A DNA stretch of 20,682 nt from a virus. Each line of letters opens with the position of its first letter. Positions within the stretch are counted from its first letter, which is position 1. The stretch spans positions 1 to 20,682 of the IMG/VR virus record IMGVR_UViG_3300042691_018355. The stretch is one strand, 5' to 3'. The notes beneath the pieces are model-generated. The model was not told the DNA's origin. It did not search any database and saw nothing but the letters and a program-made list of their open reading frames with translations. The position numbers were made by a program, and so were the translations under genes. Below are positions 1,527 to 20,682 of the stretch, in pieces.

Positions 1527-1804
1527 GATCGTATTACCCAGTAATCTACATTTATTGTAGTTGTAATTTGAGTTTTAACCGTAAAAGACCCTGAGTTTAA
1601 AGTAATTGTTAATCCTACATAAGTATAATTTACAGGAAAAGCAATTACATCCCAGGAGTCATTATTTGCCAACCCTGTAACAGTAACAGTCGTCCCAGTT
1701 GAATTGGCAGTAACAGTTCCACTTTGTACAAATCGAGGAACTCGACTTGTAAAAGAAAGTACTGTATTTCCGCTCGAATTATAAACTTCTAGTCCATATG
1801 CCAT
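1523..1804 (-). CDS. Small tip-associated protein with M-A-Y-G-L-E-V N-terminus (93 aa)
   Basis: A 93-residue, Thr/Val/Asn-rich, probably all-beta protein. It opens MAYGLEVYNSSG and continues SRVPRFVQSGTV, a pattern I associate with small virion proteins encoded next to J in many siphoviruses (DUF6453-like). No catalytic motif, cysteine or membrane segment is visible. The ATG shares one base with the stop of J (TAATG); an AGGA element lies about 12 nt upstream, so reinitiation after J is likely. The same N-terminal pattern recurs in the next gene, which suggests duplication with the longer copy gaining an extra domain. Function in the virion is unknown. Confidence 0.72.
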   Translation of the reverse strand: MAYGLEVYNSSGNTVLSFTSRVPRFVQSGTVTANSTGTTVTVTGLANNDSWDVIAFPVNYTYVGLTITLNSGSFTVKTQITTTINVDYWVIRS

Positions 1805-4800
1805 TATGTTAAATTTCCTAATTTAACTCGTAAAGTTCCACTGGTATCAAAAATTCGAATGCTAGTAGTACTTATTTCCATTCTTTCTCCAGAAGTATTA
1901 CTTTTAATACTTAGTCCTGTAGTAGAAGTACCTGAAATATTAACTACTGCAACATTTATTGTTCCAGCATTCAGTTTATCAGCAGAAAGGTCTAGTATTT
2001 TTGCATTGTTAATAATACCATTTGCAATTTGAATAGTACCCGTAATTACTGCTTCAGTAGTAGAAATTTTAGCTGCTGTTATTGCGCCTGCATTAATTTT
2101 ATTTGTTTCAATAGCATTTGCAGCTATTTTATCTGCTATTACAGCATTTGCAGCAATAGTATATGCTACTACAGCGTTTGCGGCTATTTTACCTGCAATT
2201 ATTGAGTTTGCTATTAGTTTTTCTGCATTAACAGAATTAACATCAAGTTGAACAGTAGTAATTGAATTTGCAGCTATTTTATTAGCAGTTACAGCATTTG
2301 CCTCTAGTTTGGAAGTAATAATAGCTCCATCCTCAATAAGAGTAGCGGTTACTAGCTCTTCAAATCTAACATCTGCAATTTGAATTTCTCCGCCTGAATT
2401 TTCCCAATTAAGTAAAAAAGAAGGAGCTACAAATCTAGTATTAGCATGAAAATTTGAAGGTCCCGCTGTGGTAGTTACTTTTGTCCAGCTTGCAGATGAA
2501 GCACTGCTAGCCCATAGATAAAAGTTATGCCCAGAATTTCCTCCTATAAGAGCGCCCGTAGAATCTCGTTCTTGAAGAGTTGCATAATTATTATATCCTG
2601 GAGTTCCTATTGTTCTATAATAAAACGTAAGTCTATAAGATTTTGTTCTATCAATAGGAATTGTTTTTATACCTTCTCCAGGATACCAGGTCATATTTCT
2701 TGCAGCAGTTCCACTTGCAGCATATGCTACATATCTACCTGCTGGAGCATCTGTTACTATTTTAAATAAAGCTAGCGTACCCCCATAAGTATTACTCCAG
2801 CTAGCTTGATCTTCAAAAGTCGAATCTGGCAATAAGGAAGCTGCTGGATTTGCTACTAATAATTTGTTAGTTGTAACAGAACCTGCTGCTATCTTTACTG
2901 AAGTAATAGAATTAGCTGCTAATTTATCTGTTTCAATAGCTCCCGCTTGAATATTTTCAGCTAATACAGCATTTGCAGCTAATTGAATTGTACTAATTGA
3001 ATTAGCTGCTATTTTTTCTCCTACAATAGTGCCATCTACTATTAAATCTCCTACTGTTTTTTCCTCAAGACGAATATCAGTTATTTCCTGATAGTTAGTA
3101 GTTGAGCTACTTCCAGTCCAGTTTAATATAGTTCTAATTTTTACAGCTCTTTCAGAAGCAGTAGGCGTAAACTCTGTTGATAACTTTTGCCAGGAAGCGG
3201 TGGGAGTAACATATTCTAGTCCACTAAAAGTTAGCTGAACACCGCCTTGATCTAATAATCTTAGATATAAACCACCATTATCGCTACCAACTTTACGTAC
3301 CCAAGCAGATAGTCTATACTTTTTACCACTAGAAACCGGATAACTATTTACAGTTTGAATAGCACACGGTCCTAGACCGTAAGAAGTAAAAACAGAATCA
3401 CCAGAAACCGAATCCCCAATAGTTCGTCTAATAGCTGTTGCGCCATGTGCTCCGTCAGCCCAAGCTGTGTCATCTTGACATCCTGGATCTTCATTTATAG
3501 CTTGGCCTTGTCCAGTAACATATAATTTATTTGTTGTAATTGAACCAGCAGCTATTTTTACCGAAGTAATAGAATTAGCAGCTAACTTATCTGTTTGAAC
3601 AGCCCCTGCTTGAATATTTTCAGCTAATACAGCGTTTGCAGCTAATTGAATTGTAGTAATTGAATTAGCTGCTATTTTATTTGCATCAACAGAATTTGCC
3701 GCTAATTTACTAGTAGTAATGGCCCCATCAGTTATTAAAGTAGCATCTGATTTTTCCATTAATCTTATATTTGTTACAGCATGTTGAATTCCTGTATTCG
3801 AACTATAATTTAATAGTGCCACTAATCTTACATATCTTGCCGCAGTAGGAATAGCTGCAGCTTCGCCAGGACCAAATCCTATTGTATATTCTGTCCACGA
3901 AGAAGGAAAGGCACCCCCTGTTATTCCATAATAAGAATAAGTACCATTACCCCCCCAACCAGAAGGAGAGTTTGCTCCTCCATTTGCCGTATCAAGATAA
4001 GAAGGCATAAGAGCACCGTTAGCAGCATACCAAGCAATTCCTAAATATCCATTTCCTTGTCCTAAAGTTCCTGCGGTTTGTTTAGCCCACATATCTAGTC
4101 TATAAGGCTTATTGGGTTCAATTGGAATGAGCTCAGCATTTTTAACTTCTACAGCTATTCCAGCTGGATTAACTATAGCAGTATTTCCTGCAGGACCATC
4201 TGTTATTCCAGTTAATTGACTACCATTAGGCCATGCTGCAATATCTTGGCCCATAGGATCTGGATTTAATGCAGCCCCACTTCCTGTTACTAGTAACTTA
4301 TTAGTAGTAATAGACTTTGACGCTATTTTTACGGAAGTAATAGAATTAGCTGCTAATTTATCTGTTTCAATAGCTCCCGCTTGAATATTTTCAGCTAATA
4401 CAGCGTTTGCAGCTAATTGAATTGTAGTAATTGAATTAGCAGCTATTTTTTCTGCAATTACTGAGTTAGCAGCTATTTTATTAGCAGTTACAGCATCTGC
4501 GGCTAATTGAATTGTGGTAATTGAATTAGCAGCTATTTTTTCTGCAATTACTGAGTTAGCAGCTATTTTATTAGCAGTTACAGCATCTGCGGCTAATTGA
4601 ATTGTAGTAATTGAATTAGCAGCTATTTTTTCTGCAATTACTGAGTTAGCTGAAATATTTTCGGCTATAACAGAATTTGCTGCTAAAGATTCAGTAGTTA
4701 CAGAATTTGCACTTAAATGACGAGTTACAATTGAATTTGCAGCTAATTTTTCTGCAACTATTGAGTTTGCTTCAAGCTTTTCTGTAGTAATAGCATTTGC

Positions 4801-7800
4801 TGCAATTGTATTTGCCGTAACAGCATTTGCAGCTATTTTACCTGCTACTACTGCTTCTGCTATGAGTTTAGGGCTAGTTATCGCATTATTTGCAATTTCT
4901 GTAGAAGTAATTGTTCCAGGTAATATTTCATCTGGGCGTGGAGAATATGCCGTAGAGACATCGCCTAATTCTACTTGACAATTATCCCAATATACAGTTC
5001 CATTTGGAGCATAAATTCTTACTTCTATAAAAGAAGGGGATGCAGAAGTAGTAAAAGTAACACTTTTTTTAGTCCATACTCCTGTCGCGTGCGAGCTAGA
5101 TAGAGTTAAGTCGGCATTAGAAAGAGTTCCGTCATAAATTAATACACTTCTATTATCTACAGCCCCGCCAGTTATGGAGTTTACATATACCCAGGCTGTA
5201 AAAGTATATGTTGTACTTGGCAATACTGAGCCTGTATATTGTTGATATAAATAAGAATCTTGTCCAGAGGTAGTATGTACAAATTTTGCAGATTTTGTAC
5301 CGCTCAAAGCTCTATCCGTTGAACTAGAGCCTGTAAAACTAATAATTTTAGTCCAATTTTCTAAATCTACAGCGGACTCAAATCCACTATTGTTTAGTAG
5401 ATTTCCACCCCCAAGTGTTATATTTAACTTAGGAGCAGTAATTGCACCAACTTGAACTTGAGCAGCTCCAACAGCATTTGCAGCCATTTTAACTTGTGTA
5501 ATTGCATTTGCTACAAGTGCCGCAGTATTTACAGAATTTAAAGCCATTTTGGCTTCTGTAATTGCACTGCCCACTATTGCAGATGTATTTACAGAGTTTA
5601 GAGCCATTTTGGCTTCTGTAATTGCACTACCTACAATCGCTGCAGTATTTACAGAGTTTAGAGCCATTTTGGCTTCCGTAATTGCGCTTCCTACAATTTG
5701 AGCAGTATTAACAGAAAGAGGCGCTATTTTTGTCTCAGTTACAGCGTTAGAAATTAATTGTGCTGTATTTACAGATAATGGGGCTAATTTTACTTCTGTA
5801 ATTGCAGTATTTGCTATTTTTGTGCTAGTTACTGCACTTGTTGCTATCTTAAGTTCTGTTATAGCTGCAGTTATAATCTGGGCAGTATTAACAGAAAGAG
5901 GGGCTATTTTTGTTTCACTTACTGCATTTGCAGCTATTTTAATTTCAGTTATTGCAGTATTTTGAATTTGTCCTGTATTAACAGAATTTAGTGCTAATTG
6001 AGCTTCTATAAGTTGTCCAGTAATATTTGCTGCGGGAACTGCAGAAGTCCACGCACTACCAGTATACCTGTATAAAACATCTTCTCCGGTTAAAAATACT
6101 ACCCTACCTTCAAAAAGATTAGTACTTGGTAAAGTTCCTACAATCTCATATCCGCCTTTTGCTTTTGCTACTGAAAATTCTCCAGTATACGTTTTTCCAG
6201 CATAACTTGCATTTATTGTTAAAGTTCCAGTATCGTTTGCAGTTGCAAGATTTGTAACAGAATATTGACCTTTAGTAGTTGCAGTATTTGATACTGTACC
6301 TGTAAGTCCAGTAGTTGTAGCACTTGTCCAGCTTGCATTTTCTGTAATATTTACGTCACCACGGTATAGACTTGCTTGACCAGAAGCTCCCGAATAACTT
6401 GCGACAGTACCTTCAGCGTAAGCAAATAAAGTAATACCTGCGCGAGATATTGATAATGAAATTGCAGGCTCTCCTGCAGCGCCATTTGCGCCCGTAGCGC
6501 CATTAGCTCCGGCTGCACCAGCACGAACTCCAGTAAAACTTTGTTGCCGAGTATAAGTTGTTAAATTACCTAAAGTATCTTTTACTGTAATATTATATAC
6601 AATTGAACCTGTATTTGCAGTAAGATTACTATGATTACCATAACGTCTTGTATCGTTTGTAACTGCTGTAGTATTTGTAGTGGGATTAGTATTTACATTA
6701 ATATTTGTATTGCTTGCTACTGCTACATTAAAACTAGGGGATGGAGTGGCTGTTGCATTATAAGTTAATGGAGTATTACCTTCCCATACTAAAATGTCTG
6801 TTCCAGAAGCAGTATAAATACCGTTTAATCCAGAAGAATCTAAAGGAATAGAGTGATTTTCATTTACTACTAATACAGTATGCGCTCCCCTGCCATTTAC
6901 TCCATTAGCGCCAGCTCTTAATCCAGTAAAGCTTTGTTGTATATAATAAGTAATAAAATTACCTAAAGTATCTCTTACACCAATACCGTATACAATATAA
7001 GCTGAATTTGAAATAAGATTACTATGATTACCATAACGTCTTGTATCATTAGTTACAACAGTAGTTACTGTAGTAGGATTTGTATTTGGGGTTATATTTA
7101 AACTATTCTGAACTATAACATTAAAGCTAGGCACTAAAGTTCCAGAAACATTATATGTTAATGGGGTATTCCCTTCCCACACTAAAATATCTGTTCCTGA
7201 AGCAGTATAAATACCATTAGATCCATTAAGGTCTAAAGGAATAGAATGATTCTCGTTAGTAACTAATACTGTATGAGCACTTCTACCTATTGTCCCATTT
7301 GCTCCGTCTACTATTTTTAATATAGTATAAGAGCTGGAAAAGCTTCCAACATTGCTTGTAACTTTTACAAAATTATTATTTGATATCGAACCAAAACTTG
7401 TTGCATTAATTTGAGCTGAAGTATCTGTTCTATTACTTAAAATAGTATTTGCTAAAATATTATTATTCGCATCATAAACATACCAGAGTGTATTAGCTCG
7501 TAAATTTTGACGATTTGCAAATAAAGTTATAACCGAAGGACCAATTAATCCTCCTGCTGACGTATACCTAAATCCATTGCTATCAGCATCTAATATTAAC
7601 AACTGTGGCTCATCTATGGCTGTAACAGCATACCGTATTTCTTCTGAAGCTACATTGCTTGCGTTTTTAGCAATTTTAGAGAATATTGCATCATTAACAA
7701 GATCGATCTTTAGGCTTGGAGTACGAATAGTTTGATTAGTAAAAGATTTTTGTATAACTTCTCTTGTAGTTAGAGAAGTATTACTAGAAATTGTCGAAAC

Positions 7801-10800
7801 TACCGCATAAAAAGAATTTGCCGTATTAGAAGAATTATGTAGTTTAATTAAGCTTCCTATGCCTAAATTACTTGTAAAGTAAGTTCCAGTACCAGTAATT
7901 GTTCGAGAACCGACTGTGGCAGAGACAGTACCAGGAATTTGTATTAGTCCACTATTAGCAATTCCAGCTTCGCTCCAATAGCTATTTCCAGAGCCGTACG
8001 GAGTACGAATACTTGTATCAGTATAATATTTTATAACTTTCCATGGATCAGTAGAATCACTATCATCCCACATTAAAAAGTAGTCGTCATTAGCGGGCAA
8101 AGATTGAAAACTTTGTGAAGTTTGTGCACTTGTGGCCCCATTTACCGTGTACGCTTTTCCTAACGGATTCACATAAGTATATTGACTATCAATTACAGTA
8201 AAAGTATTTGCTTCGAAAAGTACAGCAGAATCTAAAGAACCGCCAGCTTTAATGCCAAAGATATCATAGCCAGGACCTGCAGAAGGCCGAATAAAAGTAA
8301 ACTCAATACTATACCAAGAAGAGTATTGCCCAAATATATTTTTTGTTCGAACTCGTACTATATAAGTTCCCGGACTAATTCCAGAAAGAACTAAATTATT
8401 TCTATTTCCAGAAACTGTTTCTGTTAAAAAGTCTCTATAAGAAGTATTAATATCATCATAAAAATTATGTTGTATTTCATAAGCATCAACATATCTATAC
8501 TCACGAGTATTTGTGTTACCATTACTGTCTGTAAAAGACTCTACCGGGGGTGTCCAAGAAATATAAGCATATAAAATAGAGTCAGAAAGATTGTCCTCAT
8601 CATTTACGTCCATTCTATAGTAATTTGCTATTAAATTAGTAACATTTGGAATATCTTGTCCTGGTCGAGGACCGGTAAAAGTATTATCTCGAATTTGTAC
8701 TTTTGCTTCTAATTCATCAAATTTTTGTTCAGCATAGTTTGATGCTACTATTGAATACACTCCACCCTGTTCTTCTTTGATGCTCAATACTCGATATTTT
8801 TTAGGCTCTACATTATTATCATAAGTAGCATTTTCTAATGCCCAGATACTATCCGTATTTGGAGTAGAAGTAAATGCAGAACTTATATCTATTATATTTC
8901 CTACATAAGGCTCGGCAGTAGTAATAGAACGCTTTTGTACATGTGTATGCTCACTAAATGTAGTGGTTACCACGTTCCCGCTATCATCAAGTAAATTTGT
9001 TGCAGCAACACTTGTAGTAACCCCAGGAATTAAATCTCCTCGATAATAAGTAGTTCCTGATATAACTGCAGAAGCTTGTTGTAGATAACAGCCTGGACCA
9101 TCAAAAACAACATGCAGCGTATGCGCCGTACTTTGAACCGCCGAAGAAGTGTTTCCAAGAATAAGATTATCAATAGTAATAAATTCATTTGTAGAAGATA
9201 CAGCATTAGTAAAACTTATGCTTACATTTGCTATATTTGTACTTAATGAACTACTAAATCCAAAAAACTTATCTTTATTTGCTACTATATTATAAGATTT
9301 TACAGTACCGGAAGTGTATCCAACATTTACTGTAAGCGGCACTTGAGCATTATACGTTCTATACGAAGCAATACCATTTACATTATAGTCTTCAGAAGTA
9401 GTATTTGCAATTGTACGAACAGATATTTCTGCACCAAAAGAACTAATTGCTGGACTAAACTGAGAAAATACTATTCCGGCTTTACTTGTACTTGTAGTAA
9501 GCCCAACATTATTAGAAGTATTTGCAATAGCAGAACTATATCCTTGTGCAGTATATTCTGTCATTGCATCTATTGCTAAAGTACCTGTAGTGCTATTTGC
9601 TCTATAACTGTAACTACCAAGAGATGCGGTATTAGTAGAAGAACGAGTTATCGAAGCTGCTTTTGCTCCAGTGTTCCCCACAAAAGAATTAAAGTTATCG
9701 GTACCAGAAGAGACCAAAGCATTTTCAAAAGAAGTTCTATTGCTAAAAGTGCTGCTCGCAATTGTAACGTCTCTATCTAACGTTATTGTTGTTCCAGAAG
9801 CGGAACGAATACGCCCACTTGCTTGAATAGCATTTAAATGATGATCTTGTACATTTACAATATCTCCAGGTAACAAAAAGTTGGCATTCATGCCAGTACC
9901 AAAACTTATAAATTCTGTCTCAAGCTGAGAAGTTAACATATTCCATAAAGCTACACGATAGGCTTGTCCTTGGCTAGTGCAGCCAAAAGCTACCGAGTTC
10001 ATTGGAACAACTTTTCCTTGCTTAATTATATCCGTTTGATCTGTAACTGTTAATACATCTTGCTGATAGAATTGATCTGGATTGTTCCAGGTAATATTTA
10101 CTTCATTATAACGAGCAAGTCTTCCTGAGTATTCATAATTAAATAATCCATCAACCACATTACCCTGAGTAAATGTATAAATAGGCTCTTTTGGACTATC
10201 TTGAATGGCTAGTAATGCGCCCTGTGCCCATATCATCATACCGCGGAAAGTAGTAGCCAAATCTCGTAATACTTTATAAGCTTCTTCTGCTTCAAAAATA
10301 TATACGTTACAAGTAAAACGAGGCTCCATTCCTCCTTTACCATCTGGAACCAGTTCATCGCAATATCGACCAATTCTATATAAACTATATTTATCTACTA
10401 GTGAGGGGTCTACATATTTACCCAAACCGTATCTTTTATTTGTAGCAAGATCATAAAAAATCCAAGCAGGATTATTTGTATATCGTGTAATAAACGTGCC
10501 GTCCCATGCTCCATTATATTTTGCTTTTCCATCAAAAGATTCTTCTCGCGTCGTATAGTTGGAAGGTACTTGAACTTTTATACCGCGAACATGATATGAA
10601 CGTCCCGGTATGGAATTAAATCCTTCTGAAGGAAAAGTAATTGCAGCATACGCAGAATGAGGATACCTAAATTTATCCAATACCTGACACTCGACATATT
10701 TCAAAGTCGAGGCGCTAACAAAAGTAGCATCATCTGTGCTATAATCACTAGAACTATGTGGATTAATTCTGGATACAATAACTGAAAAATTAGTAAAAGG

Positions 10801-12018
10801 TTTAAACTGCTCTACAGGAATTTCAATTTCGTGTAGAAATGCAGATTCAACCTCTGTTTTATAGAATCCAGAATACCCAGATATTGCCGCCTCCCAGTCA
10901 CGTATTCTTAGATTGCCAGAAGGAAATCCTGCTCCAGAAGAAGGCCCTACTATAATTGCAGTTTTAACCTCTCCTCCTTGAGTATATTGAAACTTAACTT
11001 GAAAACCTGCAAATGCAGGTTGAATTCTACCAGAAGCTCCAGAATTCACGTAAAGACCTGCAGGAAACTCTATTCCTAGCCTTATTTTATCAATTTCTGA
11101 AGCTTCTGTCACTCCCAATGCGGCTGCAGAATAGCTAAGTGGAGATTGTAGTCCATTAAAAGTATTTGTCCATTCTAAAGGCTGTTCAATTGAAGTTAAA
11201 AAGCTAGCAGTTGGAACATCTCCAAAAGTTACTGGAGTTTGATTTAAAGTACCGACTCTAAAATTTACCGCAGTGTTTTTAAAGTTCCATTTATCATTGT
11301 ACAGTTGATCTTGGGCCACTGCTGGAGGTAAGATTTGAAATTTGGTGCCAGAAACGGCTGGAGCAACGTAAACTGTTAAAGAATTTGAAGTTGCAGTATT
11401 TACTACAGCAATGTGATCAATTCCACCAGCTTTATTTACGCCAGAAGTACTTATTGGGGGCTCCACTACAGCAGTATTTGCGTCTATATATTGAGTAACG
11501 GTACCTACATATTCTCTTCCTGCTGCCCCCATGCCAGTAATTCGTAGTTTTGGTCGTGCAGCTATTAATAGAGCAGGATTTATTGCCATATTTGCGGTAA
11601 AAAATCCATTTGCTCTTATTCTAGTATCTCCGACATTTGCGGTAAAAGCGCTTGAAGTTTTTCCTCCGCGTTCGAGAAGTATAATTCGTCCACCTGTGCC
11701 AGATAAATTTACTTCGTTTGAAGATACTGTAGTGCTATTTGCAGTAAAAGTACCATTACCGGAAACTATAGAACTTACCGAAGGTCTATTCGCTTCGGTT
11801 GTTAATGGAGTACCATTTAAATATACACTTGCAGCTCCATTAACAAGACCGTGAATTTCGCCTTCTGAAATTAAGTCATAAACTACGGCATATTGAGGGC
11901 TAGTAGCTCCGGTAGTGCTGCCAACAGAAGTTGCTGTTTGTTGCTGTGTTCCTTGTATTGCCTGGGCTTGTGCTACAGCATCTGCTACCAGTTCTCCATT
12001 TATCGCTGAAATTCCCAT
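1804..12018 (-). CDS. Giant modular tail-tip / central fibre protein, lambda J-like (3404 aa)
   Basis: This is the tip attachment and host-recognition protein, about three times the length of lambda J (1132 aa). Residues 1-750 are the conserved tip hub: VYDLISEGEIHGLVNG near 48-63, the WIFYDLATNKRYGLGKYVD segment near 518-537, and LLPGDIVNVQD near 716-726. An extra domain interrupts the hub (about 754-965). A fibronectin-like domain follows (about 1126-1245), then beta-rich modules, a tandem duplication of about 131 residues (1578-1839), a Gly-X-Y run and an Ig-like domain ending in FSVAKAKGG. The distal half (about 2005-3320) alternates decapeptide-repeat stalks with four carbohydrate-binding-like domains. 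The last 85 residues (LDLSADKLNAGTIN, then SIRIFDTSGTLRVKLGNL) form a typical J C-terminus. The start has a strong AAGGAG 6 nt upstream. The hub assignment is firm; the sugar-binding role is inference. Confidence 0.92.
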   Translation of the reverse strand: MGISAINGELVADAVAQAQAIQGTQQQTATSVGSTTGATSPQYAVVYDLISEGEIHGLVNGAASVYLNGTPLTTEANRPSVSSIVSGNGTFTANSTTVSSNEVNLSGTGGRIILLERGGKTSSAFTANVGDTRIRANGFFTANMAINPALLIAARPKLRITGMGAAGREYVGTVTQYIDANTAVVEPPISTSGVNKAGGIDHIAVVNTATSNSLTVYVAPAVSGTKFQILPPAVAQDQLYNDKWNFKNTAVNFRVGTLNQTPVTFGDVPTASFLTSIEQPLEWTNTFNGLQSPLSYSAAALGVTEASEIDKIRLGIEFPAGLYVNSGASGRIQPAFAGFQVKFQYTQGGEVKTAIIVGPSSGAGFPSGNLRIRDWEAAISGYSGFYKTEVESAFLHEIEIPVEQFKPFTNFSVIVSRINPHSSSDYSTDDATFVSASTLKYVECQVLDKFRYPHSAYAAITFPSEGFNSIPGRSYHVRGIKVQVPSNYTTREESFDGKAKYNGAWDGTFITRYTNNPAWIFYDLATNKRYGLGKYVDPSLVDKYSLYRIGRYCDELVPDGKGGMEPRFTCNVYIFEAEEAYKVLRDLATTFRGMMIWAQGALLAIQDSPKEPIYTFTQGNVVDGLFNYEYSGRLARYNEVNITWNNPDQFYQQDVLTVTDQTDIIKQGKVVPMNSVAFGCTSQGQAYRVALWNMLTSQLETEFISFGTGMNANFLLPGDIVNVQDHHLNAIQASGRIRSASGTTITLDRDVTIASSTFSNRTSFENALVSSGTDNFNSFVGNTGAKAASITRSSTNTASLGSYSYRANSTTGTLAIDAMTEYTAQGYSSAIANTSNNVGLTTSTSKAGIVFSQFSPAISSFGAEISVRTIANTTSEDYNVNGIASYRTYNAQVPLTVNVGYTSGTVKSYNIVANKDKFFGFSSSLSTNIANVSISFTNAVSSTNEFITIDNLILGNTSSAVQSTAHTLHVVFDGPGCYLQQASAVISGTTYYRGDLIPGVTTSVAATNLLDDSGNVVTTTFSEHTHVQKRSITTAEPYVGNIIDISSAFTSTPNTDSIWALENATYDNNVEPKKYRVLSIKEEQGGVYSIVASNYAEQKFDELEAKVQIRDNTFTGPRPGQDIPNVTNLIANYYRMDVNDEDNLSDSILYAYISWTPPVESFTDSNGNTNTREYRYVDAYEIQHNFYDDINTSYRDFLTETVSGNRNNLVLSGISPGTYIVRVRTKNIFGQYSSWYSIEFTFIRPSAGPGYDIFGIKAGGSLDSAVLFEANTFTVIDSQYTYVNPLGKAYTVNGATSAQTSQSFQSLPANDDYFLMWDDSDSTDPWKVIKYYTDTSIRTPYGSGNSYWSEAGIANSGLIQIPGTVSATVGSRTITGTGTYFTSNLGIGSLIKLHNSSNTANSFYAVVSTISSNTSLTTREVIQKSFTNQTIRTPSLKIDLVNDAIFSKIAKNASNVASEEIRYAVTAIDEPQLLILDADSNGFRYTSAGGLIGPSVITLFANRQNLRANTLWYVYDANNNILANTILSNRTDTSAQINATSFGSISNNNFVKVTSNVGSFSSSYTILKIVDGANGTIGRSAHTVLVTNENHSIPLDLNGSNGIYTASGTDILVWEGNTPLTYNVSGTLVPSFNVIVQNSLNITPNTNPTTVTTVVTNDTRRYGNHSNLISNSAYIVYGIGVRDTLGNFITYYIQQSFTGLRAGANGVNGRGAHTVLVVNENHSIPLDSSGLNGIYTASGTDILVWEGNTPLTYNATATPSPSFNVAVASNTNINVNTNPTTNTTAVTNDTRRYGNHSNLTANTGSIVYNITVKDTLGNLTTYTRQQSFTGVRAGAAGANGATGANGAAGEPAISLSISRAGITLFAYAEGTVASYSGASGQASLYRGDVNITENASWTSATTTGLTGTVSNTATTKGQYSVTNLATANDTGTLTINASYAGKTYTGEFSVAKAKGGYEIVGTLPSTNLFEGRVVFLTGEDVLYRYTGSAWTSAVPAANITGQLIEAQLALNSVNTGQIQNTAITEIKIAANAVSETKIAPLSVNTAQIITAAITELKIATSAVTSTKIANTAITEVKLAPLSVNTAQLISNAVTETKIAPLSVNTAQIVGSAITEAKMALNSVNTAAIVGSAITEAKMALNSVNTSAIVGSAITEAKMALNSVNTAALVANAITQVKMAANAVGAAQVQVGAITAPKLNITLGGGNLLNNSGFESAVDLENWTKIISFTGSSSTDRALSGTKSAKFVHTTSGQDSYLYQQYTGSVLPSTTYTFTAWVYVNSITGGAVDNRSVLIYDGTLSNADLTLSSSHATGVWTKKSVTFTTSASPSFIEVRIYAPNGTVYWDNCQVELGDVSTAYSPRPDEILPGTITSTEIANNAITSPKLIAEAVVAGKIAANAVTANTIAANAITTEKLEANSIVAEKLAANSIVTRHLSANSVTTESLAANSVIAENISANSVIAEKIAANSITTIQLAADAVTANKIAANSVIAEKIAANSITTIQLAADAVTANKIAANSVIAEKIAANSITTIQLAANAVLAENIQAGAIETDKLAANSITSVKIASKSITTNKLLVTGSGAALNPDPMGQDIAAWPNGSQLTGITDGPAGNTAIVNPAGIAVEVKNAELIPIEPNKPYRLDMWAKQTAGTLGQGNGYLGIAWYAANGALMPSYLDTANGGANSPSGWGGNGTYSYYGITGGAFPSSWTEYTIGFGPGEAAAIPTAARYVRLVALLNYSSNTGIQHAVTNIRLMEKSDATLITDGAITTSKLAANSVDANKIAANSITTIQLAANAVLAENIQAGAVQTDKLAANSITSVKIAAGSITTNKLYVTGQGQAINEDPGCQDDTAWADGAHGATAIRRTIGDSVSGDSVFTSYGLGPCAIQTVNSYPVSSGKKYRLSAWVRKVGSDNGGLYLRLLDQGGVQLTFSGLEYVTPTASWQKLSTEFTPTASERAVKIRTILNWTGSSSTTNYQEITDIRLEEKTVGDLIVDGTIVGEKIAANSISTIQLAANAVLAENIQAGAIETDKLAANSITSVKIAAGSVTTNKLLVANPAASLLPDSTFEDQASWSNTYGGTLALFKIVTDAPAGRYVAYAASGTAARNMTWYPGEGIKTIPIDRTKSYRLTFYYRTIGTPGYNNYATLQERDSTGALIGGNSGHNFYLWASSASSASWTKVTTTAGPSNFHANTRFVAPSFLLNWENSGGEIQIADVRFEELVTATLIEDGAIITSKLEANAVTANKIAANSITTVQLDVNSVNAEKLIANSIIAGKIAANAVVAYTIAANAVIADKIAANAIETNKINAGAITAAKISTTEAVITGTIQIANGIINNAKILDLSADKLNAGTINVAVVNISGTSTTGLSIKSNTSGERMEISTTSIRIFDTSGTLRVKLGNLT
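2065..2345 (-). repeat. Decapeptide stalk block 5 in J
   Basis: Residues about 3225-3318 contain about nine decapeptides (for example TANKIAANSI, AEKLIANSII, ADKIAANAIE) leading into the conserved C-terminal cap. These copies are more diverged at DNA level than those in block 2. Confidence 0.8.
2346..2860 (-). other. Carbohydrate-binding-module-like domain 4 of J
   Basis: Residues about 3053-3224 show the entry SLLPDSTFEDQASWS, then DRTKSYRLTFYYR, WTKVTTTAGPSNF, RFVAPSFLLNW and the closing IQIADVRFEE with junction LIEDG. It is aligned by landmarks with modules 2 and 3 but diverged in the loops. Confidence 0.6.
2861..3045 (-). repeat. Decapeptide stalk block 4 in J
   Basis: Residues about 2992-3052 run from TIVGEKIAANSI to SVTTNKLLVAN. 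It is the third copy of the composite linker (2861-3015), including LAENIQAGAIETDKLAANSI. It separates modules 3 and 4. Confidence 0.85.
3046..3519 (-). other. Carbohydrate-binding-module-like domain 3 of J
   Basis: Residues about 2834-2991 share an architecture with modules 2 and 4: entry GQGQAINEDPGCQDDTAW, SGKKYRLSAWVRK, WQKLSTEFTPTASERAVKIR, closing EITDIRLEEK and junction LIVDG. Two cysteines (GCQ and GPCAIQ) occur only in this module. Confidence 0.6.
3520..3737 (-). repeat. Decapeptide stalk block 3 in J
   Basis: Residues about 2762-2833 run from AITTSKLAANSV to SITTNKLYVTG. The distal 150 bp (3524-3677) is nearly the same sequence as 2861-3015 and 4295-4449, so a composite linker of about 50 residues recurs before three of the four binding-like modules. 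Confidence 0.85.
3738..4290 (-). other. Carbohydrate-binding-module-like domain 2 of J
   Basis: Residues about 2577-2761 begin after LLVTGSGAALNPDP. They show the jelly-roll landmarks IEPNKPYRLDMWAKQ, a Gly/Trp/Tyr-rich loop (SPSGWGGNGTYSYYG), WTEYTIGFG and a closing VTNIRLMEK followed by the junction LITDG. The fold is inferred from the strand pattern and its similarity to modules 3 and 4. Confidence 0.6.
4291..4923 (-). repeat. Decapeptide stalk block 2 in J, including a 90-bp near-perfect tandem repeat
   Basis: Residues about 2366-2576 consist of roughly twenty-one decapeptides of the form xTxKIAANS[VI]. Within it, 4411-4500, 4501-4590 and 4591-4650 are tandem copies of a 90-bp unit (two full, one two-thirds) that I read as differing at only two positions, 4411/4501 and 4426/4516. 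Each unit encodes three decapeptides (TTIQLAADAV, TANKIAANSV, IAEKIAANSI). Such identity points to very recent amplification or gene conversion. Confidence 0.9.
4927..5420 (-). other. Carbohydrate-binding-module-like domain 1 of J
   Basis: Residues about 2199-2364 open with GGGNLLNNSGFESAVDLENW, a hallmark of CBM4/9/22-like jelly-rolls (N-x-GFE-x-W). They continue with SGTKSAKF, TTYTFTAWVYV, WTKKSVTFT and VYWDNCQVELG. This is the most recognisable of the four modules. No ligand can be read from the sequence. Confidence 0.7.
5421..6008 (-). repeat. Decapeptide stalk block 1 in J, including three 60-bp tandem copies
   Basis: Residues about 2005-2198 consist of roughly nineteen 10-residue units alternating between AITEAKMALN-like and SVNTAAIVGS-like sequences. 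At DNA level the period is 60 bp. The clearest copies are 5521-5580, 5581-5640 and 5641-5700, which differ at about ten positions per pair. Older, more diverged copies extend to about 6000. It probably forms an extended trimeric stalk before the first binding-like domain (inference). Confidence 0.85.
6502..7287 (-). repeat. Tandem duplication of a ~131-residue beta domain in J
   Basis: Copy A is residues 1578-1708 (DNA 7287-6895) and copy B residues 1709-1839 (6894-6502). Both contain AHTVLV, NENHSIPLD, NGIYTASGTDILVWEGN, TNDTRRYGNHSNL and QQSFTG at matching offsets. The central part (after TPLTYN) has diverged while the flanks remain nearly identical. Each copy is joined by a short Gly-X-Y stretch. 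It is an in-frame duplication within coding sequence. Confidence 0.88.
8281..8643 (-). other. Fibronectin type III-like domain of J
   Basis: Residues about 1126-1245 hold the usual landmarks: a proline-containing first strand region (YAYISWTPPVESF), YEIQHNFYDD in the middle, and the closing pattern SGISPGTYIVRVRTKNIFG. Lambda-type J proteins carry such domains after the hub. It probably spaces the hub from the distal binding region. Confidence 0.65.
9127..9759 (-). other. Extra jelly-roll-like domain inserted in the J tip hub
   Basis: Between the conserved strand LDRDVTI (residues 747-753) and HTLHVVFDGPG (from 966), lambda J has only a short connection. Here about 210 residues are inserted, rich in Asn, Ser and Thr. 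They read as a beta-sandwich: SLGSYSYRA, then FGAEISVRTI, KFFGFSSS and the closing ITIDNLILG, reminiscent of anchor or lectin jelly-roll domains of bacterial surface proteins. Boundaries are by eye and the fold is inferred. Confidence 0.5.
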
Positions 12019-17600: not shown

Positions 17601-19935
17601 CAGTGAAAACTTTAAAAGTTGCTTGTGTTTTAAATAAATCTGTTGAGGTAGATCCATTCCATTGTGCAAAAGCATCTGATAAATTTTTTACTAAATCAGA
17701 TATTTGTACTAATCTTTTTTGTAGGGGGCTTAAATTTATAGAATCTATAAGTTGTTTTTCCAGCGTTCTAAACCCTTCTGAATATGCCTGCAAAGAAATA
17801 GCAACACTTTTTGCAGCTTTTGCATAGTCTACGATAGGCTTAGTGGCAGCAACTATTTGTTCAGAAGAAACCTCGGTAGCCTGCTTTAAATTTTGAATTG
17901 TTTCTACATATTTTCTTAGTTCTGGTATGCCGTGTGCGTAGGCTTCTATTAAAGTTAATTGATTATCGCGCGTAGCATCCTGTACCTTTTGTACTCTTTC
18001 TAGCTCTTTGCTTGTTCTTCCGATTTCATTTTGTAGCGCATTATATGAGTCAATGGCTGAAGGAGGAATTCCAGCTTCTGAAATTGGTATTAATAATGTA
18101 GAAGGTCTTTCTAGCCCTTTGAGGCGCTTTTCGGCTTGATCTATATTACTCTGTAATTGTTCAAATACAGAGTCTGCGGCTGTAGCTTGCTTTATAAACT
18201 TATCCATAGAGTCTGGAATGTTTCCACCCATACTAGCTTCAAAAGAGGCTACGTCTAAAAAAGTTCCAATTGTTTTAATATTTTCTAAACCTTTTGCCGC
18301 TCTTTCTACATCTTTAATTTGTTCTTTTAATAATTCGATTTCTTCTCCGTCGCCTATAATTTGTTCAGCTAAACTTTTTTTTACAAGATCTTCTTTACCA
18401 AATCTATCGATTAAATAAAGAGCTGTTGTTTTTATAACTTCTGCAATAGTAATTACTAAACCAATAATTCCTATAACTTTAATAATTCTATTCATTACTC
18501 TTACTGCTCCAAGAGTAAGTTCTTGCAGTCCTTGCATGGCAGTAGCCCAAGCTAATTTACCTTCTGCTGCTGCTTGACCAATATTGTTTCCAAGTCTTCG
18601 AAATTGTCCTTGCATACCTTCCGTAGCTTTTTGAGCTGCTGTTTGCATTTCTTCAAGTCCGGCTTTTGTCTCCTCTAATTGCTCCTTGGTTAAGCCTTTG
18701 AAAGCTGGATTTCTTGCCTGATGCTTCGCCATTGCTATTAAATCATCATCAATTTGTTTTATCATTGCAGTAACTTGGCCTGGATCAAATTTATCACCGG
18801 CGGTTAAACGTAGTAAATCTTCTATAATTGGAGGAGCTTTTGCTCCTTGAACTTTTTTGATAGCAGAAGCTAATCCTTGTATATTATTTACTGCCGGCTT
18901 TACTGTTCTAGTAATAGTAAGCTGCCCGCGAGCAAACGCATCAGCTTCAAGTGTATAATCTGCAATTTTATTTGCATATTTTTCAATTTTAGCATCTATA
19001 CGTTCAGTTATAGTTTCCATATCTGGCAAAGCTTGTTTTATTACACCTCCAAGTAATAATCCGAAGGCTGAAACTACTGCGGCAACATTATTTTTTACAG
19101 ACCCCGCTAAAAATTCTGCTACTTTTGATACTTCTGGTAATATTTTATTTCCAAGTTCTGAAAAAGCCGCTCCAAGTTGACGAATTCCATTTGCGGATAA
19201 TTCACTTGAGTCTCGCAAAGCTCCATATTTTTTCTCAGCTTGCTCTAAAGTAAATATAGCAACGCCTTGAGTTCTTTCGTAAGCAGTAAGATCGCTAGCC
19301 GTTTTATTAATACTACGAGCATACTCAGAAGTAGCGTCTGCAAGACGAAGTACAATACCAAGTTCATCTAAAAGTTCTGGTTCAGCTTTTGTAATACCAC
19401 GAATAAGCCTATTGAAAGTATCTTCGAGATCTCGACCTAATACTGCGGAAATTGTTTGAGAATAACTAGCAATGTCTTTTAACATTGTGGCAGAAAGACC
19501 TGCGGCCGTACCAATTGCAGCAGCTTGAGCAGCTTGCTTATATCCTAGTTGGGCATCAGTAGCTGCCTGAATAGATTTTGTAATTGAAGTATAACCAATT
19601 CCAGTTTGCTCAGTAAGTGCTTTTTGTCCTTCAATTAATATACGAAAATCTGCAGCTTGTAGTAAAAATTGATAAGCCGCACTGAGTGCAAAAACTTGAG
19701 CAGCAATAGTCGCATAGGCAGCAACAAGTCCGCCCATGCCTTGAGACATTTTGGAAAAGTTTTTGGTAGCATTCGAAGAAGCCTGAGCAACTCCTTTTAT
19801 ATTTCTATCGGCTTCTGCAGAGCCTGTTGAAGCACGGCTCATAGCATCTGCTAGACGATTAGTGTCTACGGCAACACGACGTGTTGTGCCATTATCGTCT
19901 ACTACTACATCCAAGTATATTGTATTTTTTGCCAT
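14635..19935 (-). CDS. Tail tape measure protein, lambda gpH-like (1766 aa)
   Basis: The tape measure sets tail length and later helps DNA cross the envelope. At 1766 residues it is about twice lambda gpH (853). Residues 1-60 are a short beta start (IYLDVVVDDNGTTRR) and helix. Hydrophobic segments occur near 69-92 (GLVAAYATIAAQVFALSAAY), 479-505 (IIKVIGIIGLVITIAEVIKT) and in a Gly-rich region near 1585-1632. The middle (about 500-1300) is almost entirely charged alpha-helix with coiled-coil character (for example LEKEIEYTSKAQLPALKDKI). The C-terminal part has AFGQGIEQEIAAFLKG, the typical ANGGVVNKPTLGLVGEGRYN and ends KRQKRPGGLLSPF. Its ATG shares a base with the T-frame stop (TAATG), so translation is probably coupled to the chaperone, as expected since G/GT act on this protein. 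Confidence 0.93.
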   Translation of the reverse strand: MAKNTIYLDVVVDDNGTTRRVAVDTNRLADAMSRASTGSAEADRNIKGVAQASSNATKNFSKMSQGMGGLVAAYATIAAQVFALSAAYQFLLQAADFRILIEGQKALTEQTGIGYTSITKSIQAATDAQLGYKQAAQAAAIGTAAGLSATMLKDIASYSQTISAVLGRDLEDTFNRLIRGITKAEPELLDELGIVLRLADATSEYARSINKTASDLTAYERTQGVAIFTLEQAEKKYGALRDSSELSANGIRQLGAAFSELGNKILPEVSKVAEFLAGSVKNNVAAVVSAFGLLLGGVIKQALPDMETITERIDAKIEKYANKIADYTLEADAFARGQLTITRTVKPAVNNIQGLASAIKKVQGAKAPPIIEDLLRLTAGDKFDPGQVTAMIKQIDDDLIAMAKHQARNPAFKGLTKEQLEETKAGLEEMQTAAQKATEGMQGQFRRLGNNIGQAAAEGKLAWATAMQGLQELTLGAVRVMNRIIKVIGIIGLVITIAEVIKTTALYLIDRFGKEDLVKKSLAEQIIGDGEEIELLKEQIKDVERAAKGLENIKTIGTFLDVASFEASMGGNIPDSMDKFIKQATAADSVFEQLQSNIDQAEKRLKGLERPSTLLIPISEAGIPPSAIDSYNALQNEIGRTSKELERVQKVQDATRDNQLTLIEAYAHGIPELRKYVETIQNLKQATEVSSEQIVAATKPIVDYAKAAKSVAISLQAYSEGFRTLEKQLIDSINLSPLQKRLVQISDLVKNLSDAFAQWNGSTSTDLFKTQATFKVFTAILVKLKDQFRRTFELQEQEQNIARLRNSIALFTAENFQPLSLLQELDETELNLQINKLKTELQTIQLDKDLFDLIKGKNPVINAAIASDKAAAALRAAGVENANTFKTEFSSVTNTFIEQLREENDYLIKNLAAINDSESKVTKRSLPQDFNDLVTQRITFDPKSVETLRTQALAIAPERLKVFINEAIDGFKEIASTDFYSLDQISEFSSKLQRTVSDLALADVSKAAREAAISMDEAVKISMDQAEALKQQQIAQLELLGPLKVISDNEKRILQDTLARNKAQESALNIQNEIDSFQQSTAKKLEAQVRLSKELTNLEIQDYSATVAVNKLQENRLTNLINQKNITDDQRKVYEDELRGLTAANNEREKALRLEIIRNAVQRKEAQRQAALGLLKEQTDTALNLLNVQQELSNLSNPYIQEELRERLEIEKSTTSLLALEKEIEYTSKAQLPALKDKIIAEKARLTVLQEQEKEINKISQAVKGAFGQGIEQEIAAFLKGGQIDIETSFLNIVKSVGEAAADQMAKTATNFILDGLGLGEESEAEKINSAMKEAANYAESVIGPAMSNAGNSTADAIKAALSEVDTRITQSLKNSVGEGGTTASNTIKTAMEEAARYTANLIKEAYAQIQPKMPMEEQKEEVKLPVAPQAVKVSGIKQVSGIESVSNSTVVPSSNQSVAPLSVKVTGIEELEACIVRALSTGAVEVERAIGRAFQNANLSIKPPALPTPNDNPLIQEVQVTAQRLPVPDKSSTTSVGMTIANGAKKIGTDIRNFGNQVQETFASDAPFLDKLGSIFSADAPWINSMTRGLAGALGGLAVGALSSGGGNGWRNAIIGGAISGLSFGFSSWLGGLGNTPQTPGGTLSYDSFPNTVRAANGGIMPGGFRAFANGGVVNKPTLGLVGEGRYNEAVVPLPDGKSIPVIMQTGGGDRNNIGININVNSNGQMQGDVQATGERGVAMAQAIQNVVQLELKRQKRPGGLLSPF

Positions 19936-20342
19936 TACTTAGCTGCTGCTTTGGCTTTCGCCGCTCGTTCAGAAGCTTTTCGCTTTTGAGCAATTTTTCC
20001 GTTTACCGAGTCTGTTGTAGTTACATCTATAATTTTAAGTAACTGCAACGTAAATACTTTATCTTCTACTTCGAATATATTAAAGATTGCATCTAGGGAG
20101 GACCAATCTTTGCCAAAGTAAGCTCCTGAAGCTCCGTCCCAATGATCCGGCAGATAGTTATAAATAAAAAATGCCACTTGAACCTCGACTGGAAAATCAG
20201 CGTCAGTTAGTGGCATTTTTTCAGGATCAGGCTCGCGCCCTAGCTGTTCACAAATAGCTAGGTACGATTCTATAGATATGTCAGATTCTTGTTTTGCTTT
20301 TCGTTTTATAAGTCGAGTTACTTCTTCGACTTGTTCTTCGAA
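19935..20342 (-). CDS. T-like C-terminal extension of tail assembly chaperone GT (made by -1 frameshift)
   Basis: From 20342 the -1 frame is open for 135 codons to the TAA at 19935. It reads FEEQVEEVTRLIKRKAKQES first, then YLAICEQLGREPDPEKMP, PVEVQVAFFIYNYLPDHWDG, and a Lys/Ala-rich end (KRKASERAAKAKAAAK). An ATG at 20216 lies inside this frame, but it has no Shine-Dalgarno sequence, and conserved-looking sequence precedes it. So the segment is best read as the extension fused to the G frame rather than a separate gene. In lambda, the rarer GT form binds both tape measure and tail tube protein and is required for assembly but absent from the virion. The slippery site and hairpin next to the start of this segment support the model. 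Confidence 0.88.
   Translation of the reverse strand, partial: FEEQVEEVTRLIKRKAKQESDISIESYLAICEQLGREPDPEKMPLTDADFPVEVQVAFFIYNYLPDHWDGASGAYFGKDWSSLDAIFNIFEVEDKVFTLQLLKIIDVTTTDSVNGKIAQKRKASERAAKAKAAAK
20310..20332 (-). promoter_or_regulatory. Hairpin stimulating -1 frameshift in G/GT
   Basis: On the minus strand AAGTCGA (20332-20326) and TCGACTT (20316-20310) form a perfect 7-bp stem around a 9-nt loop. The stem starts 9 nt downstream of the slippery heptamer, inside the spacing range of known -1 frameshift stimulators. The 0-frame stop TAA (20320-20318) sits in the loop. Confidence 0.78.
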
Positions 20343-20682
20343 AAATTTGCGAGATCACCCACTGTATCTACAACCCAAGAGTCAAAGTCAGGGCTGTTCT
20401 TCATAAGAGTTGCGGCATTGTCCGCAGAATAAACAAGTTCTTTCATACCAGTCGGTAAAGCCGATGTATCCACTAACAGAAGCTCTTCTAAGTAAGATAC
20501 TTGGAGACCCCGCCAACCTTTTACGACTGCTTGCGTATATTCTGCTGCAAATCTTTCTTCATCAAGTTCTTCTTCGGGCTGACGTGTGCGACGATTAAAT
20601 TTTGTCGATACACAACGCTTACGAAGTTTTACCATTTCTTCTCTTGAGAGAAAGCATAGATCTACTTCAAAACCAGGAAATC
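20318..20682 (-). CDS. Tail assembly chaperone, lambda gpG-like (5' end outside the window)
   Basis: The frame is open to the right edge (first full codon at 20680), giving at least 120 residues. The first ones visible, FPGFEVDLCFLSREEMVKLR, continue a typical chaperone pattern, so the ATG at 20635 is internal and not the start. KLRKRC, the charged KFNRRTRQPEEELDEERF and EYTQAVVKGWRGLQVSYLEE are landmarks of tail assembly chaperones encoded just before tape measures. This shorter form ends SKNKSKK after the slippery site. It is expected to coat the tape measure during tail tube polymerisation, in excess over the frameshifted GT form. The gene upstream (probably the major tail protein) is not in the window. 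Confidence 0.87.
   Translation of the reverse strand, partial: FPGFEVDLCFLSREEMVKLRKRCVSTKFNRRTRQPEEELDEERFAAEYTQAVVKGWRGLQVSYLEELLLVDTSALPTGMKELVYSADNAATLMKNSPDFDSWVVDTVGDLANFSKNKSKK
20342..20348 (-). promoter_or_regulatory. Slippery heptamer A AAT TTT for -1 programmed frameshift
   Basis: The G frame reads GCA AAT TTT TCG here, which gives the X XXY YYZ pattern A AAT TTT in the correct phase. Slippage by one base keeps both tRNAs paired at non-wobble positions. The next codons (TTC GAA GAA CAA) continue openly into the frame of the T-like segment; the 0 frame ends seven codons after TTT. Confidence 0.87.

Follow-up and report, generated by a model that had tools for sequence, protein, structure and literature searches.

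The -1 frameshift of the G/GT genes of phage lambda was reportedly described by Levin in 1993 and by Xu in 2004. The lambda heptamer is G_GGA_AAG, its frameshift rate is a few per cent, and the lambda site is described as having no strong hairpin. G-T frameshifting of the lambda type is common among long-tailed phages (PMC5009743). The motif H_HH.U_UU.Y, which covers A_AA.U_UU.U, is among the efficient ones in E. coli, and stimulatory structures generally begin 5-8 nt downstream of the heptamer (PMC4066793). The use of +1 frameshifts in phage structural or tail genes is cited for the Listeria phage PSA and the haloarchaeal virus HSTV-2 (PMC10299305, PMC5009743). A literature search for AAATTTT together with frameshift and phage gave one match, which concerns a Wolbachia hydrolase and makes a different claim (PMC10299305). 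In this work, a virus record of 20,682 bases, a linear fragment called the window below, was examined. It comes from an uncultured long-tailed phage in which two genes for tail assembly chaperones are very probably joined by programmed -1 ribosomal frameshifting. Judged by the parts read from the DNA, this would be lambda-type G/GT frameshifting and a further example of a known phenomenon.

All elements of interest are on the minus strand, with the 3' part of G at the right end of the window. Gene G, encoding a gpG-like tail assembly chaperone, is an open frame at 20680-20318 whose 5' end is cut by the contig end, and its stop TAA is at 20320-20318. The gene upstream of G lies beyond the contig end in the window, and its counterpart in T5-like relatives encodes a minor tail or base plate tail tube protein. 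The T domain occupies the -1 frame at 20342-19935 (135 codons and the stop, at 19937-19935), and fused to G it would read ...LANF followed by FEEQVEEV.... The gene of the tape measure protein (1766 aa, 19935-14635) follows directly after T, and lambda-like tail tip genes come next. The position of lambda J is taken by a 3404-aa tail protein (1804-12018, minus strand) with many 'AANSITTIQLAANAV'-type repeats in its C-terminal half. The stop of T and the ATG of the tape measure gene overlap by one base in TAATG (19933-19937), an overlap shared by 27 of 44 clusters. The tape measure protein may be made in coupling with the completion of T, and so mostly by frameshifted ribosomes, in which case its amount would track the frameshift rate. 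Among the relatives, the overlap is TAATG or TGATG and its Shine-Dalgarno sites are weak.

The G protein matched PHROG 313 'Tail assembly chaperone' (E 9e-14), and T matched PHROG 3914 'tail assembly chaperone' (E 1e-22). In Pfam, G had only a sub-threshold XkdN-like match and T had none. The comparison of the G and T models with solved structures, by sequence and by fold, gave no credible match; myosin and calmodulin sequence matches for T were weak and were judged to be helix-driven. The tblastn searches gave 897 records with G and 892 with T, in which T5-like phages dominate, with Vibrio, Salmonella, Escherichia and Klebsiella as hosts of the T5-like records. A sequence match to lambda G or T was not detectable in the searches made here, and the relatives found were T5-like, not lambda-like. 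On protein similarity, G and T thus belong by descent with the T5-like chaperones rather than with those of lambda. Their families and position point to a chaperone role for both.

The slippery heptamer A_AAT_TTT is located at 20348-20342, in phase with G (read GCA-AAT-TTT), and is conserved in relatives. It is followed by the 9-nt spacer TCGAAGAAC (20341-20333; 8 nt in most relatives) and by a 7-bp stem without mismatches. The stem has AAGTCGA (20332-20326) as its 5' arm and TCGACTT (20316-20310) as its 3' arm, and the loop AGAAGTAAC between them (20325-20317) holds the G stop. The first-pass annotation had already proposed this heptamer in the G phase, the spacer, the stem with the 0-frame stop in its loop and an uninterrupted -1 frame of 135 codons into the next gene. 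Each of these proved exact in position, on the minus strand, which it had not given; the -1 frame runs from 20342 to the T stop and ends at the tape measure start. The apparent gap of about 100 bp that it noted at 20217-20317 corresponds to the 101 nt from the G stop to the first ATG of T, and is open in the -1 frame. Its reading of a -1 frameshift is also supported, as the heptamer and its phase, a conserved T-frame protein before any usable start and a covarying hairpin all fit it. The -1 frame is closed upstream by a TGA at 20357-20355, which bounds a stop-to-stop ORF at 19935-20354, so any shift is confined to the overlap at 20354-20318. This overlap of about 12 codons contains one canonical heptamer. 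In the other genes of the window, in-phase X_XXY_YYZ heptamers occur at 0.0071 per codon, and the overlap would be expected by chance to hold about 0.085 of them (0.011 for A_AAT_TTT). Furthermore, none of 5412 stretches of 135 codons was open in the -1 frame of these other genes. Upstream of the heptamer, GGTGATC (20353-20359) is complementary to the 3' tail of 16S rRNA (5'-GAUCACC-3') and was considered as a possible stimulator. The mean 16S duplex energy in this stretch is -9.3 kcal/mol versus -2.7 kcal/mol in the rest of G. However, the value for synonymous recodings is -7.7 kcal/mol, and 35% of them are as strong. The coded peptide (VGDL) explains most of the complementarity, and an upstream stimulator is therefore not claimed. 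The complementarity extends past the usual Shine-Dalgarno core both in the window and in relatives.

Relatives were collected by viral-contig scans with the window's G and with the G of two relatives (L081 and L075). After the removal of repeats and of two truncated contigs, 201 distinct contigs with a readable site were available, including the window. The heptamer AAATTTT is in phase at the homologous place in 190 of these 201 contigs, mostly with four T, although contig counts are not independent events. Many contigs are near copies, so the tests were done on clusters, which reduces shared ancestry and does not remove it. After AAATTTT, the -1 frame is open for about 120-145 codons in nearly all complete contigs. 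In one contig (L226), the -1 phase is kept with G_GGA_AAC replacing A_AAT_TTT just upstream of the G stop, and in the other ten T is in the +1 phase. The scan of genome contigs with G found no relative, and neither the scan with VCPH G nor a profile scan with a mixed alignment found anything. The DNA of cultured phages gave no match to the window, and the T5-like records were reached by protein searches only. Synonymous variation was compared with the expectation from codon use at 101 G codons in 56 clusters differing by more than 10% in DNA. It was zero in exactly three codons, namely the two heptamer codons and the codon giving the first A; the median observed/expected ratio was 0.92, and the next lowest codon had 0.20. 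The pairs GAA/GAG, AAT/AAC and TTT/TTC all vary freely elsewhere in G. The residue before Asn varies (Glu, Ala, Gln), its codon ending in A throughout the 56-cluster set; some loci found later have other codons before Asn. The first-pass annotation had proposed an alignment of relatives and had named relatives that lack the heptamer and keep both frames as evidence against the frameshift. In the alignment, the heptamer is conserved at the frequency given above and the hairpin covaries. Relatives with both frames and no heptamer do exist (the T5-like phages and the ten contigs), but these have T in the +1 phase, with TTT-CG at the shift codon, and L226, the only -1-phase relative found without AAATTTT, has another canonical heptamer. 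These exceptions therefore fit the frameshift reading and do not refute it.

Among 5000 synonymous recodings, a perfect stem of the window's length starting 5-12 nt past the heptamer arose once (p = 0.0002), and by folding energy the window stem had p = 0.017 against such recodings. The stem is A+U-rich and unremarkable against dinucleotide shuffles of the 86-nt stretch (z = -1.4), and its 9-nt spacer slightly exceeds the usual 5-8 nt. In the main clade (42 distinct sequences), the stem has 8-10 bp, begins mostly 8 nt after the heptamer and includes the G stop in its 5' arm, as CAAGTAG...CTACTTG or CAAGTAA...TTACTTG. Changes on both sides of the stem were seen in 40 cells versus 18.2 in shuffles, and the covariation score was 0.235 versus 0.112 in shuffles, with none of the 500 shuffles reaching 0.235. 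This signal collapses once the partner arm is slid. Columns 23 and 36 form one such pair, in which the second position of a varying codon finds its match in the third position of a different codon. Thus, in the main clade the hairpin structure is kept by compensatory change. The window's own register was rejected as a structure for the family, with 44.9% of cells paired and covariation not above shuffles; it is common only to near copies. The 5' arm of the window has its homologue in the fixed CAAGT(A/C) arm of relatives. Around the fixed CAAGT, the 3' arm takes at least four different registers. Compared with most relatives, including the main clade, it lies one codon earlier in the window clade, a few bases later in L005 and L007 and about eight bases earlier in the clade of L081. 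The hairpin folds better than synonymous recodings (p<=0.05) in 36 of 50 clusters. About a quarter of the clusters, among them L180, L188 and L194, have no significant hairpin, and it is therefore not essential in every lineage.

Other explanations of this arrangement were considered. T could be a separate gene translated from its own ATG, with the upstream overlap being incidental. An ATG is present at 20216-20214, the start that a gene caller would pick, and gene callers annotate T of T5-like phages from an internal start. Its Shine-Dalgarno site is weak (-2.2 kcal/mol, with a mean over clusters of -1.5 kcal/mol); since most genes of this phage have weak Shine-Dalgarno sites, its weakness does not exclude a start. 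On the other hand, the Met-Pro start is absent at this site in 16 of 50 clusters, and the T-frame codons 1-43, up to the first ATG, are open across the family. Codons 15-42 differ mostly at the third position (0.40, 0.27 and 0.57 for positions 1, 2 and 3), like the body of T, and the residues Q4, G35 and P38 are invariant. Moreover, residues 1-43 are modelled as two helices with pLDDT of about 85-92. Conservation at the protein level before the ATG together with a weak or missing start is predicted by frameshifting and not by a separate gene, which would also give no reason for the invariance of the heptamer or the covariation of the hairpin. A separate gene is thus very unlikely, and internal initiation may operate alongside frameshifting.

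The change of frame might also come from an error made in sequencing or assembly, or the T run might have mutated recently, and the five-T run at the site of the window is a usual spot for such errors. The same phase and heptamer in 190 contigs, with both frames conserved as protein, refute this through the relatives, and its probability is practically negligible. The A-T homopolymer junction could in principle join the frames by transcriptional rather than ribosomal slippage. However, with its three A and its four or five T, AAATTTT is short for a polymerase, as polymerase slippage usually needs eight or more bases in a run. Such slippage needs no exact codon phase, fixed distance or hairpin, and the GGGAAAC of L226 obeys the ribosomal heptamer rule and not that of polymerase slippage, so this explanation is scarcely credible. 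The role of the hairpin is less certain. The heptamer might shift ribosomes while the hairpin is kept for another function, e.g., mRNA protection or control of T translation. The clusters without a significant hairpin and the description of lambda as lacking a strong one are in line with this possibility. It is nevertheless rather unlikely, since in most lineages the 5' arm is fixed 4-9 nt past the heptamer and the 3' arm moves, as fits a stimulator that depends on distance.

Returning to the programmed -1 frameshift, the locus has two chaperone-matching ORFs just before the tape measure gene. The second one is in the -1 phase, overlaps the first and does not need its own start, and the in-phase canonical heptamer in the overlap is under constraint at the nucleotide level. 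We propose that most ribosomes would stop at 20318 and release gpG. A minority would pause at A_AAU_UUU as the downstream hairpin meets the ribosome, tRNA-Asn and tRNA-Phe would re-pair one base back, on AAA and UUU, and decoding would continue in the -1 frame to give a small amount of gpG-T. The shift itself and its rate are what we infer here, as is the stimulatory function of the hairpin from its conservation. By analogy with lambda (PMC5009743), G would bind the tape measure protein and T the tail tube subunit, and both would be absent from virions. In such a lambda-like division of labour, G would coat the tape measure protein and T would recruit tail tube subunits. Conservation alone makes it very likely that A_AAU_UUU and the covarying hairpin set the ratio of G to G-T in this phage group, and gene calls for these contigs should therefore join both frames. 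The group also represents a natural experiment, in which the heptamer stays the same over about 190 versions and the hairpin varies in the place of its 3' arm.

The T5-like phages show the opposite phase. In 13 T5-like records, as well as in further records and contigs, the phase of T is +1 (or -2). The opposite-phase loci comprise the T5-like records L082-L084, L134-L143 and L227-L229 and the viral contigs L210, L212 and L218-L225. An alignment of both groups shows one invariant Phe codon, at which these loci read TTT and then CG. In all 20 clusters used this Phe is TTT, against a share of 37% for TTC among the remaining Phe codons of their G; the count leans toward TTT, as TTT-CG served to locate the sites. 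From this codon onward the T frame is open in each of the 20 clusters, and in a tree of 71 clusters one branch divides the two directions (SH-aLRT 96). The T5-like frames would be joined if tRNA-Phe slipped by +1, from UUU to UUC; a -2 slip would have no good re-pairing. This suggests a +1 frameshift that has been overlooked in T5-like phages. According to a genome announcement, T5 and Sugarland are without a predicted frameshift signal (PMC6256483), while the Shivani record joins the two ORFs. We lean towards the view that the direction of frameshifting was reversed once in the homologous G/T pair, with +1 at UUU-C in the T5-like phages and some uncultured viruses and -1 at A_AAU_UUU with a hairpin in the group of the window. 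To a similar, limited degree, we favour that one invariant Phe codon serves both directions, so that an adjacent one-base indel would be enough to switch. The site of L224 (AATTTTCGAAGA) and that of the window (AATTTTTCGAAGA) differ by one T. Read side by side, and not as a reconstruction, these two sequences suggest that a one-base change could convert one direction into the other. T5 is a model phage, and TTT-CG in its overlap makes the +1 frameshift directly testable there.

Compared with the described systems, the locus shares with lambda a pair of genes before the tape measure gene with a short overlap and two chaperone products, and a -1 shift close to where G ends, as reviewed in PMC5009743. 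It differs from lambda in having A_AAT_TTT and not G_GGA_AAG, and in the conserved, covarying downstream hairpin of the window's family. With the -1 signals of the IS911 and IS3 transposases it has in common an X_XXZ_ZZN heptamer and a downstream stem-loop or pseudoknot, the upstream Shine-Dalgarno being optional in those signals (PMC4066793). These are, however, insertion sequences, and their genes and products are unrelated. The +1 frameshifts of PSA and HSTV-2 bear only on the observation about T5-like phages. The T5-like phages (Demerecviridae; T5.143/T5.142) have homologous G and T, with G about 30-36% identical to that of the window, the same order before the tape measure gene and the junction at the same invariant Phe, but their T is in the +1/-2 phase with TTT-CG and no heptamer.
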